From a virus: 46,288 bases of DNA. The translations under genes and the position numbers were made by a program. The notes under the pieces are model-generated. The model did not search any database. It worked only from the letters and a program-made list of their open reading frames with translations, and was not told the origin of the DNA. The stretch lies in IMG/VR virus record IMGVR_UViG_3300023174_000008, positions 1 to 46,288 of that record. One strand, given 5' to 3'. This document shows positions 30,335 through 33,200 of the stretch, piece after piece; position 1 is the first letter of the stretch; the number at the start of each line of letters is the position of its first letter.

Positions 30335-30670
30335 TTAGCCCTCGATCTTGTAGTTTGCGAAGATGTCTTCATCCTGATTGGATGCGACGCCACGGCGCAG
30401 ACCCATCGCGGGATGACCTTGAGAGTTTCCTTCCAGCATGGCTTTCAGTGCAGCAACTCCGCACTCTTTGGCTGCATCTTCCGGCAGCAGCTTGGAGTTA
30501 ACAACTTGCTCTACCAGTTGAGCCTTTTCTGCTTCCGCTTGAGTTTGTGCGTTAGCAGCCAATGCGGCAGCAACGGCGCTATCAATTGCCTGCTTGATGG
30601 TCTCGGCACTCTGAGCAGCGTTTGCCGCGAGAGCACTCTCGACAATTTCTTTTACTTTGGTTTCGTCCAC
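30335..30670 (-). CDS. Possible nested scaffold protein (in-frame internal start)
   Basis: A GTG at 30670, in frame with the protease gene, lies seven bases from GAGGG, and would give 111 residues starting VDETKVKEIVESALAANAAQ, exactly the scaffold part. Upstream inside the gene the minus strand has TGGTAAAAT (30732-30724), identical to several late promoters. Lambda does the same with Nu3 inside C. This is inference from sequence only. Confidence 0.45.
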   Translation of the reverse strand: MDETKVKEIVESALAANAAQSAETIKQAIDSAVAAALAANAQTQAEAEKAQLVEQVVNSKLLPEDAAKECGVAALKAMLEGNSQGHPAMGLRRGVASNQDEDIFANYKIEG

Positions 30671-31429
30671 TTCGTTACCCTCGCGGTTTGAATTTACTGT
30701 CTGATATTCATCAGATGGCTCTGATTTTACCACAGTTTTCATGAACTCAAGGAAACGCTCAAGCATTGAGCCTTTAACCTTAATTTCAAACTGACCTTCT
30801 AGCTGTTTGTCGTCGTATGCGTTGACATACATGACATCTGTTTCCTCTTCCTCGCCCGAGGCATTCACAAAGATCCCGACTCCCTGCTCAGGAGTGGCGG
30901 CACCTACTTCATTCAGAAGCACTGCGTCATGATTGAATCGGTCTATTTTTGCGCGCGCAGTGTATTCCTGACCCATGTCATTGACGCCGATTTCAGGTTC
31001 TTTGGTGAGGTAAACGCCAGTGCTAGTGTGGATTGGTTGCTTTGACTTGATGGCTTCCGCCAGCTTCTTGCCATTGGAGGAGTTTGTAAGCTGTTCGGTT
31101 GGGATGTATTTGTCAATAATCCAAGAGCCATCAGCTGACTTCCCGCGTACCTTGTTGTGAGCACCAAGAATGCCAAACTTTGCTTGCGCCAGCGGAAGGT
31201 AGGCGTCTGCAAACTTTCCATTAATTACAGGGTGTGACATTGTGACTGGGGAACCGTCCAGAGTGTTAATGGTGGCCTCTACCTCTTCAGCAGGGTAAAG
31301 GATTCCATTCATCACAATCTCAGGCGGGAGGGTTTTTGATGGTAGGACGGTAAATTCTATTCCCTCCACGACCTCCGTGCGTATTTCGCTGTTTGCAACA
31401 AGCGTCGAAATGTTTACGAGTAAAGACAT
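30335..31429 (-). CDS. Prohead protease fused to scaffold (DUF2213-like)
   Basis: The first ~200 residues match the DUF2213 head-maturation protease family: VEGIEFTVLPSKTLPPEIVM, then DGSPVTMSHPVINGKFADAY with a histidine, and STGVYLTKEPEIG with serine candidates. The C-terminal ~110 residues are an alanine- and glutamine-rich helical scaffold (AANAAQSAETIKQAIDSAVA) ending in a basic tail. An internal promoter-like element and an internal GTG start lie at the domain border, so a separate scaffold may also be made. Confidence 0.85.
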   Translation of the reverse strand: MSLLVNISTLVANSEIRTEVVEGIEFTVLPSKTLPPEIVMNGILYPAEEVEATINTLDGSPVTMSHPVINGKFADAYLPLAQAKFGILGAHNKVRGKSADGSWIIDKYIPTEQLTNSSNGKKLAEAIKSKQPIHTSTGVYLTKEPEIGVNDMGQEYTARAKIDRFNHDAVLLNEVGAATPEQGVGIFVNASGEEEETDVMYVNAYDDKQLEGQFEIKVKGSMLERFLEFMKTVVKSEPSDEYQTVNSNREGNEVDETKVKEIVESALAANAAQSAETIKQAIDSAVAAALAANAQTQAEAEKAQLVEQVVNSKLLPEDAAKECGVAALKAMLEGNSQGHPAMGLRRGVASNQDEDIFANYKIEG

Positions 31430-31477: not shown

Positions 31478-31501
31478 AAGAAAAAGCCACCGATTGGTGG
31501 C
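31478..31501 (-). terminator. Terminator of the imm-ncRNA-tRNA transcription unit
   Basis: On the minus strand GCCACC pairs with GGTGGC around AATC and is followed by TTTTTCTTT. Confidence 0.88.
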
Positions 31502-31507
31502 CTCGTG

Positions 31508-31666
31508 TCATTCTTTCTTTTCTAGTCGATTCTTGCCGTAAACGTGTACAACTTTAGTCCCATGCTGCTGTACCACCACACCCTCCTTGCCTTCTCGCGT
31601 GATATAGCTGCCAATGATGTCACCCTCAAAACCATCGTATTCAATCTTTGCTGTTTCGTATTCCAA
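31508..31666 (-). CDS. Small protein (52 aa) after the tRNAs, TTG start
   Basis: AAGGAG is followed by a TTG at 31666; the frame has no ATG. The product EYETAKIEYDGFEGDIIGSY with a second beta half (GVVVQQHGTKVVHVYGKNRL) looks like a small SH3-like barrel. Last gene of the unit. Function unknown. Confidence 0.65.
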   Translation of the reverse strand: MEYETAKIEYDGFEGDIIGSYITREGKEGVVVQQHGTKVVHVYGKNRLEKKE

Positions 31667-31736
31667 TTCAATCTCCTTTGTTAGATAAAGCCTGTCAATT
31701 TGAGCTTCTTAGAGAGGCTTGTCAGGCGTGTTGATT

Positions 31737-31812
31737 TGGTGGCCCACAACTGGATTTGAACCAGCAACCCGCCGATTATGAGTCGGTCGCTCTACCATTG
31801 AGCTACGGGGCC
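31737..31812 (-). tRNA. tRNA-Ile (CAT anticodon, lysidine type)
   Basis: A 76-base cloverleaf with encoded CCA. The acceptor starts GGCCCCG, the D arm is GCTC...GAGC, the anticodon loop is CTCATAA, and the T arm has GGTTCAAATCC. Strong likeness to the bacterial Ile2 tRNA (GGCCCC acceptor, same anticodon loop) makes it the ATA-reading tRNA after TilS modification, not Met. Encoded by a phage, it would help decode ATA. Confidence 0.9.
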
Positions 31813-31817
31813 ATATT

Positions 31818-31891
31818 TGGTGCTCCATGATTGAATCGAACAATCATCACTTGATTACAAGGCAAGTGTTCTACCATTGAACTAATGGAGC
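31818..31891 (-). tRNA. tRNA-Thr (TGT anticodon)
   Basis: A 74-base cloverleaf with CCA encoded. Acceptor GCTCCAT/ATGGAGC, D arm GTTC/GAAC, loop CTTGTAA giving anticodon TGT, T arm GATTG-TTCGATT-CAATC. The last pair of the anticodon stem (C-T) is mismatched. Confidence 0.88.
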
Positions 31892-31897
31892 TTGATT

Positions 31898-31974
31898 TGG
31901 CGCTTCATGCTGGACTCGAACCAGCAACCGACTACTTAGAAGGTAATTGCTCTATCCACTTGAGCTAATGAAGC
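31898..31974 (-). tRNA. tRNA-Arg (TCT anticodon)
   Basis: A 77-base cloverleaf with CCA encoded. Acceptor GCTTCAT/ATGAAGC, D arm GCTC/GAGC, anticodon stem ATTAC/GTAGT with loop CTTCTAA (anticodon TCT), T arm GCTGG/CCAGC. Reads AGA, a codon rare in many gammaproteobacteria but frequent in the accessory nucleases of this phage. Confidence 0.92.
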
Positions 31975-31979
31975 TAAAT

Positions 31980-32445
31980 TAGGTGCCCCGCCTTTTGCGT
32001 TTAGACTATCTACATAGGCAAAAACCCGAGGGCTTTACCAAGTCGTCACTTGGCTTCTTTTATTGCTAGACAAGCCTCCCTGCTATGCATCGCTCAGGCG
32101 TTCACAGTCCAGCTGGTTTTTGCCTTCATCGGAGTCTGGCGATTATTATCTAGCTTGCTGGCGCTACTGTGATGCAGGCACATTTCGCGCTGTAACTTTC
32201 CTGCATTGCTTTGTTGCGATTGGCCGCAACTGTTGATTGCACTGATTGGCAGGTCTAGCGACTCTTCTCTCCCCTGCTACGCCGTAGTATGCTTTTAAGC
32301 TCCATCGCTTAGGCGCAATGCAATCACAGTTGAAGTCTCTTCGCCATTCCTCACGGAATTGCTCAGAGTATTACCAGATATTCCGGCTTGCTAATGTGCT
32401 TAGGTTTACCGGATGATCACCTCCTAACGGTGGGACTTAGATAAC
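31980..32445 (-). ncRNA. Candidate large structured ncRNA beside the phage tRNAs
   Basis: About 470 bases without any plausible ORF lie inside a transcribed unit between a protein gene and three tRNAs. On the minus strand many perfect short stems occur: ATTCC-GTGA-GGAAT with a GNRA loop (about 32345-32359), CATTGC/GCGATG, CTAC-GGC-GTAG, GCAGG/CCTGC, GTTGCG/CGCAAC, ATGCAGG/CCTGCAT and CCAAGT-GACG-ACTTGG. Phage RNAs such as GOLLD and ROOL are large, hairpin-rich and sit next to tRNAs; I cannot tell from sequence alone if this is one of them or new. Confidence 0.55.
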
Positions 32446-32446
32446 A

Positions 32447-32716
32447 TTACTCGAATGCAATCTTTCCGTCAACAACTTCCTCCAACTCCCTGCGAAGCAT
32501 CAGCAGACACCCGATAGGAAAGCTCTGTCTTGCCAAACCAACCATAATCGCCTTGACTCGTGGATGGTTCATCCGTGGCAGCAATCGCGCAACAGTCTTG
32601 CGAATTGCCGTGTTAGGCTTGTTGCGGTGAATCTCTGCCGCAAGCTCTACCGTAACCAACATGCTGAGATAGCACAATGCCTCGTCATCTTTAGCTGTAA
32701 CCTGAGAAATATTCAT
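32447..32716 (-). CDS. Hypothetical helical protein (89 aa)
   Basis: ATG at 32716 overlaps the previous stop and lies seven bases from GGAG. The product (MNISQVTAKDDEALCYLSML, then RLLPRMNHPRVKAIMVGLAR) is helical. Family not recognised. It is the last protein gene before the candidate ncRNA. Confidence 0.72.
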   Translation of the reverse strand: MNISQVTAKDDEALCYLSMLVTVELAAEIHRNKPNTAIRKTVARLLPRMNHPRVKAIMVGLARQSFPIGCLLMLRRELEEVVDGKIAFE

Positions 32717-32799
32717 ACACCACTCCAAACCGCAAGACCGACCATAAAAAGAACAGTTAAAACAACGAACGCTATTACATGAATAAGAAGCTGTCCCAT
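32713..32799 (-). CDS. Single-span membrane peptide (28 aa)
   Basis: The peptide MGQLLIHVIAFVVLTVLFMV continues GLAVWSGV and is nearly all one membrane helix. Start and stop overlap the flanking genes by one to four bases, so it is translationally coupled to the Fis-like and the 89-aa genes. It could assist the Imm-like protein at the membrane, but this is speculation. Confidence 0.65.
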   Translation of the reverse strand: MGQLLIHVIAFVVLTVLFMVGLAVWSGV

Positions 32800-32972
32800 C
32801 ACTTAGCCCACTTCTGAATTGTGCTTCTTCCCGCGCCAAACCGCCTTGCTGCATCTGTCTGGTTTCCGTAAGTTCTTACAAGCATTTGGCTTACCATCTC
32901 GCGCTTTACCTCTACTATGATTTCATTGAAAGTCTTTCCTGAGTTAAGCTGCTCTGCGATGTGTGATTTCAT
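32799..32972 (-). CDS. Fis-like HTH protein (57 aa)
   Basis: The ATG at 32972 overlaps the imm stop (ATGA) and has GGAG nine bases upstream. The C-terminal half MVSQMLVRTYGNQTDAARRF followed by GAGRSTIQKW is a Fis-type helix-turn-helix (HTH_8). It probably regulates transcription or bends DNA; the target is unknown. Confidence 0.78.
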   Translation of the reverse strand: MKSHIAEQLNSGKTFNEIIVEVKREMVSQMLVRTYGNQTDAARRFGAGRSTIQKWAK

Positions 32973-33139
32973 TTTGATACACTCCATACCATCGACGCAA
33001 CCCACCCAATAAAAGTCCAGCCAAGCAGAAGGTTAAGCACGGCGATTGCACCTTGGTTCTTGTGGCCACCTTGAACTGCAATGATTGTTGGTGCGAAATA
33101 AATAACAACTAGAATCACCATCAAAACAAACATTTCCAT
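32969..33139 (-). CDS. imm: T4 Imm-like superinfection immunity membrane protein
   Basis: The 56 residues match the small superinfection-immunity family: a first membrane helix (FVLMVILVVIYFAPTIIAV), the polar GGHKNQGAIAVLNLLLGWTF loop-helix, then IGWVASMVWSV. In T4, Imm blocks DNA entry of later phages at the inner membrane. ATG at 33139 is chosen behind AGGAGATTGAT; the longer frame translates the promoter. First gene of the unit that ends in tRNAs. Confidence 0.88.
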   Translation of the reverse strand: MEMFVLMVILVVIYFAPTIIAVQGGHKNQGAIAVLNLLLGWTFIGWVASMVWSVSK

Positions 33140-33161
33140 ATCAATCTCCTGTGTTGATGTA

Positions 33162-33200
33162 GATACTATTACATCAAACTTAACTTGATGCAATAGTATC
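33162..33200 (-). promoter_or_regulatory. imm promoter embedded in a 16-bp inverted repeat
   Basis: The minus strand reads GATACTATTGCATCAA, a seven-base loop, then TTGATGTAATAGTATC, a 16-bp inverted repeat with one mismatch. It holds TTGCAT, 19 bases, TAGTAT. Promoter and operator appear to be the same element. The hairpin could also end the gene at 33207. Confidence 0.68.

Follow-up and report, generated by a model that had tools for sequence, protein, structure and literature searches.

A candidate modular family of structured phage RNAs beside tRNA genes, in a putative late-leader slot

Introduction

In lambdoid phages, the slot between the nin/early genes and the late genes is occupied by pR′-6S-tR′. 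Other phage and prophage RNAs have been described near tRNA genes or near Q. GOLLD has been reported to be ribosome-bound in pull-downs (PMC12286853). Pas RNAs and STnc100 are prophage sRNAs located near Q and tRNAs (PMC13192938). STnc100 copies are transcribed in O157:H7, one of them being detected on a Northern blot, and the ribosome data are mixed, with coverage ranging from 0 to 3.2 among copies (PMC5331693). In a 2014 survey, mycobacteriophages and Bacillus phage G were the only phages listed with a tmRNA; the survey also notes that a molecule consisting of little beyond the tRNA-like domain inhibits tmRNA (PMC4131195). Finally, the abiF motif is found in the RNA partner of an AbiF system that was investigated as a toxin-antitoxin pair of type III-like character (PMC12373285); one abiF RNA has been reported in a cyanophage, with no decoy-type role proposed in the part of that paper which deals with it (PMC9964418).

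We analysed a window of 46,288 nucleotides, the whole of viral record IMGVR_UViG_3300023174_000008, from a phage of Aeromonas type. A sequence-only reading had pointed in it to a hairpin-rich noncoding RNA at 31975-32446, minus strand, belonging either to GOLLD or ROOL or to an unnamed class. Our results give good support to a real structured noncoding RNA, member of an uncatalogued modular phage family that would occupy the late-leader slot. A search of the open-access PMC literature, which does not by itself prove novelty, returned no prior description of this leader-RNA family.

Results

Organisation of the locus

On the minus strand of 31975-32446 no ORF of at least 40 aa was found in the sense direction, in agreement with the earlier claim of about 470 bases devoid of a usable ORF; the only ORFs of the region are two antisense ones, of 40 and 57 aa. 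The three tRNAs mentioned in the sequence-only reading were located on the 3′ side of the RNA, and the first abuts its 3′ end exactly. The immunity gene mentioned in that reading is real, but two other genes separate it from the RNA. The same apparent unit extends past the RNA and its tRNAs, to an abiF-like RNA and a terminator-like end (31504-31483). Its elements, in order, are the following:

32969-33193: Imm_superinfect gene (PF14373, 66.5 bits)
32799-32981, minus strand: ninH-like gene, upstream of the RNA (PF06322, 31.5 bits)
32447-32800, minus strand: DUF7740 gene, immediately upstream of the RNA (PF24886, 78.7 bits)
31975-32446, minus strand: the RNA
31898-31974, minus strand: tRNA-Arg(TCT)
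31818-31891, minus strand: tRNA-Thr(TGT)
31741-31812, minus strand: tRNA-Met(CAT)
31690-31726, minus strand: abiF-like RNA (antitoxin-type), a 37-nt motif with closing stem (RF03085, 36.8 bits, E 7.9e-5 / 8.7e-7)
31483-31504, minus strand: intrinsic-terminator-like hairpin, closing the unit ahead of the head genes

The same three anticodons (TCT, TGT, CAT) stand beside a leader RNA of the family in the window (31741-31974) and in Klebsiella phage GP-1 (L024:1540-1780).

Structure of the RNA and its 16S rRNA complement

The minus strand folds with an energy of −150.7 kcal/mol (z −2.83, equalled by 4 of 100 dinucleotide shuffles), the plus strand less well (z −1.55). This is only moderately beyond chance and constitutes weak evidence alone; the strong evidence comes from conservation and covariation in relatives. 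The two stems singled out in the sequence-only reading, ATTCC-GTGA-GGAAT (32346-32359) and CCAAGT-GACG-ACTTGG, are both present. From 5′ to 3′, the following elements were delineated:

32415-32425, minus strand: AGGAGGTGATC, 11 nt perfectly complementary to the 3′ tail of 16S rRNA (an extended Shine-Dalgarno sequence)
32382-32413, minus strand: hairpin A, CCGG...CCGG, common to phages phiA005 and 4_L372X
32337-32368, minus strand: P2, a CTC..GAG helix capped by ATTCC-GTGA-GGAAT
32227-32332, minus strand: P1, a long stem (CAACTGTGATTGCATTG / CAGTGCAATCAACAGTTG) whose apical ~70 nt are exchangeable and whose core is common to phage groups
32155-32210, minus strand: 56-nt block, 100% identical in phiA005, including hairpin TGCAGG..CCTGCA (32173-32205)
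32038-32053, minus strand: 3′ hairpin CCAAGT-GACG-ACTTGG, kept in phiA005 and 4_L372X

P2 recurs in relatives as ATGCT-GTGA-AGCAT, with GCTC/GAGC or ACTC/GAGT, and the apical part of P1 is also found in Avpx2, at 77% DNA identity.

The complementarity of AGGAGGTGATC to the 16S rRNA tail was reached by none of 300 dinucleotide shuffles. Among Aeromonas-phage leaders the complement is kept in 9 of 11, several with G-U-compatible changes; it is missing in most Klebsiella and E. coli leaders, and is therefore not family-wide. No ATG, GTG or TTG lies at usable spacing after AGGAGGTGATC in the window. A TTG does follow the complement in some relatives, which makes a relic or a regulated start site possible. 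Such a complement suggests that the RNA may act on the host translation machinery. As for a hidden protein, it was discarded on the lack of a sense ORF of 40 aa or more and on the frame after the complement, which relatives do not preserve: some have a TTG there and others have none.

Homologues and a covarying stem

Using blastn, the RNA was matched in broken pieces in two Aeromonas phages, phiA005 (58% of the query, 82.6% identity) and 4_L372X (49%, 85.3%). Its central part was also matched in a third Aeromonas phage, Avpx2, and in Avpd1. With the Aeromonas-phage relatives as queries, recombined modules were detected in 2_D05, 4_D05, 4_4512, AsC4_1, 62AhydR11PP, phiWae15 and ST4. An all-against-all comparison revealed blocks shared, lost or reordered between phages, and we conclude that the RNA element is modular. 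No DNA similar to the queries used was found in plasmids and E. coli genomes, and neither the stem nor the 3′ hairpin was found when viral_contigs and genome_contigs were scanned for exact patterns. Of two genes used as queries, the DUF6260 neighbour gene of the head region had only short or RNA-less relatives in IMG/VR and none in genome_contigs, and the gene at 30335-31429 had no relatives in IMG/VR.

The common denominator of the family is the P1-type core stem, present in at least 20 phage copies, which starts with (Y)AAC and ends with GUUG(Y)GG around a tip of variable length and origin. Its carriers include Serratia phage Eta, Klebsiella phages GP-1, UPM 2146 and Pylas, E. coli phages HC6 and ep3, Erwinia phage phiEt88, and IME10, mEp460 and HK620. 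In 18 copies, the outer helix was 98% paired and the inner one 94%, with as many as four kinds of base pair at a position; the helices were registered by hand and eye (a MAFFT alignment of the stem arms was gap-free and out of register), so that this count leans towards the stem. When partners were permuted, pairing averaged 95% and 78% respectively, and none of 2000 permutations reached either observed value, a significance that is overstated because the permutation keeps column make-up and ignores relatedness, and because registration was done by eye. By eye again, the clearest single cases of covariation are AsC4_1, with 19 consecutive pairs whose letters partly differ, and 4_4512.

A covariance model of the 5′ domain was built from seven relatives, leaving out the window group. 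In a search of 728 kb, the three best-scoring sites that had not entered the model were in phiA005 (19.7 bits), in the window (32329-32435, 16.3 bits) and in 4_L372X (14.7 bits), all at the expected position and strand. With E-values of 0.24, 1.3 and 3 respectively, no single match counts, and it is their joint ranking that may carry weight.

The unnamed class proposed by the sequence-only reading is supported by phage homologues with a covarying stem, in which we saw no shared protein frame. Two of the outcomes that the reading had named as refuting it, a lack of covariation and a conserved frame, did not arise. What changes is the picture of the RNA, which is modular and not one fixed large molecule, lies after ninH in the late-leader slot, and offers ribosome- and tRNA-like features as its closest functional hints.

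Position in the late leader

In the annotation of HK620 the order is ninH, Q, pR′, qut, the core RNA, terminator tQ and holin, and in 2_D05 and 62AhydR11PP the RNA is located ahead of the terminase genes. The order in the window is a ninH-like gene, the RNA, tRNAs, a terminator-like site and then head genes, so that the RNA lies, like a leader RNA of the lambda 6S type, between nin and late genes with a terminator at the end. Since gene order is shared with HK620, we read the window RNA as part of a late-leader transcript comprising tRNAs and RNA modules, and by synteny it would occupy the late-leader slot. No Q family match was obtained among the genes tested between 32447 and 35388, and no strong sigma-70 promoter just upstream of the RNA; for this reason, co-transcription from a leader promoter is something that we infer. 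Leader position alone could mean merely that the slot tolerates inserts.

Such a position also invites a cis-acting explanation, in which the structured RNA renders RNA polymerase termination-resistant for late transcription, in the manner of HK022 put or of a Q-dependent leader. The location between nin and late genes, the terminator at the end and the lack of a recognised Q in the window region all fit. In HK620, however, Q is present and a qut site is annotated separately, upstream of the RNA; a related module occurs outside the late leader in mEp460 and CF57a, and neither tRNA-like tips nor a 16S complement are expected of an antitermination element. We regard this explanation as unlikely.

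Matches to known RNA families

At curated cut-offs, Rfam recognised only the tRNAs in the segment comprising the RNA and its tRNAs. With E allowed to reach 10, a cmscan of 31600-32600 covering all 4227 families of Rfam returned no GOLLD, ROOL, STnc100, intron or riboswitch, and introns and riboswitches were excluded on this basis. For the core we found no Rfam family, though one related RNA alone matches 174 of 50,697 phage records.

Relatives of the RNA do show some resemblance to STnc100. Matches of 37-40 bits (cut-off 47) were obtained in noncoding regions of ST4, UPM 2146 and LAh_6, and the genomic slot is similar to that of two kinds of enterobacterial prophage RNA, STnc100 and the Pas sRNAs. 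Both have been proposed to be regulatory sRNAs or sponges that work by base-pairing, a role that could be considered on these grounds. Two observations render it improbable for the window RNA: STnc100 is not matched there even at E 10, and its conserved unpaired element is complementary to 16S rRNA.

A module GTGGTGAATGCGCAGGCTGATGCGC...CCGG..CCGGCCACCAC, whose closing helix resembles that of STnc100, recurs with variations in many enterobacterial, Aeromonas and Pseudomonas phages (L005, L009, L011, L023-L028, L031-L034). In Klebsiella phage UPM 2146, ~2.7 kb without any annotated gene (L028:393-3094) hold the core stem, a tmRNA-like tag frame and the sub-threshold STnc100 match.

tRNA-, tmRNA- and AbiF-related elements

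T-arm-like hairpins are enriched in the leader RNAs, with 12 found for 0.6 expected (maximum of 3 in 200 shuffles, and 1 on the antisense strand). No such hairpin is present in the window RNA. In the noncoding regions of five enterobacterial phages, tmRNA-like tag frames of 10 codons were detected: ANEDRFLMAA in GP-1, ANDDVVLMAA in HC6 and Pylas, ANDNTFLAVA in UPM 2146 and ANEEMYLAVA in HK620 (frames at L024:1192, L025:1199, L028:1311, L029:1914 and L031:1910). Rfam tmRNA scores were sub-threshold for three of these five leaders, and ARAGORN found no complete tmRNA in L024, L025, L028 or L029. The window region contains no such tag frame, and a tmRNA (tRNA-like domain plus tag reading frame) was rejected for its RNA.

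The abiF-like RNA of the window scores just under the curated cut-off of 37 bits, and phmmer detected no Abi_2-like frame in the window. AsC4_1 also has an abiF-like RNA beside its leader RNA (L008:1934-1970, 35 bits for the same cut-off). Among 62 IMG/VR stretches with the abiF motif, 21 have it within 500 nt of a tRNA, versus 8.2 expected, and in 15 of these 21 the distance is 20-31 nt. A clear Abi_2-like protein is encoded in only 2 of the 62 stretches, many of which are short, so that the Abi_2 gene could lie outside.

One may ask whether the RNA is decaying debris of tRNA genes and other inserts, retained in a slot that tolerates sequence. Tips that resemble broken or nested tRNAs in phiA005, 4_L372X and AsC4_1 go in this direction, as do the modules deleted or swapped between phages. 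Decay would nevertheless not maintain a stem by compensatory changes, nor leave the 16S complement intact in otherwise diverged phages, and debris appears a rather poor account of the region.

As to GOLLD or ROOL, the other option of the sequence-only reading, the location in a phage next to tRNAs is that reported for both (PMC12286853), but neither family was matched at E up to 10 in 31600-32600, the RNA is modular and only ~470 nt long, and its homologues differ in architecture, so that membership is rejected as highly improbable.

Discussion

The computation establishes a noncoding, structured region with homologues across phages, a covarying stem, a leader position by synteny and a conserved complement to the 16S tail. 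Of the two options of the sequence-only reading, the unnamed RNA class has held up, and GOLLD/ROOL has fallen for want of an Rfam match. Our preferred, still tentative reading, to which we give a probability of about 45%, is that a late-leader transcript built of exchangeable modules has its structured part in this region, and that the RNA targets ribosomes or serves as a decoy. A role of the window RNA in translation or defence would be the most likely one.

In this scheme the late leader, which separates the nin/early genes from the first head genes, would consist of a noncoding RNA and a tRNA cassette. Its modules would be a 5′ domain displaying the extended Shine-Dalgarno, the small P2, the long P1 with its swappable tip, and a 3′ part that adjoins the tRNAs. 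The transcript would be made from a leader promoter and cut at the tRNAs by host tRNA-processing enzymes. The freed RNA might then pair with the anti-Shine-Dalgarno of 30S subunits and bias or block host translation, or serve as a decoy. The abiF-like RNA further downstream would be an antitoxin decoy in the same cassette.

A wider proposal can be formulated, which we consider possible and distinctly speculative: tailed phages of Gammaproteobacteria may carry, by their tRNA genes, a recombining late-leader RNA cassette that mimics parts of translation and defence, namely mRNA start sites directed at the 16S tail, tips resembling tRNAs, tag frames like that of tmRNA, and antitoxin RNAs of AbiF type in orphan form. 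These would be decoys taking over ribosomes and disarming host rescue or abortive infection. The late-leader slot of HK620, annotated with pR′, qut and tQ, contains a tmRNA-like tag frame in addition to the conserved RNA stem. If these RNAs act on ribosomes or on AbiF-type defence, this would help explain why phages retain tRNA arrays and large noncoding stretches.

With lambda 6S (pR′ to tR′) the window RNA shares the slot from nin/Q to the late genes; it differs in that its unit has tRNAs and covarying modules, and no recognised Q gene in the window region. With STnc100 (RF02076) and Pas it shares a phage location near tRNAs and late genes, and related leaders have the TGGTGAAT..CACCGG..CACCA module, whereas both this module and the STnc100 match are absent from the window. 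Like GOLLD and ROOL, which are large structured phage RNAs close to tRNAs, it lies next to tRNAs, but it matches neither in sequence or structure, GOLLD often exceeding 800 nt and a ROOL example measuring 659 nt. Compared with abiF RNA (RF03085), the antitoxin of AbiF, the window copy is single, with no abiF gene detected, and sits within the tRNA cassette outside 31975-32446. Finally, the likeness to tmRNA (ssrA), or to phage tmRNAs reduced to the tRNA-like domain, lies in the tag frame of 10 codons carried by the relatives HK620, GP-1, HC6, UPM 2146 and Pylas.
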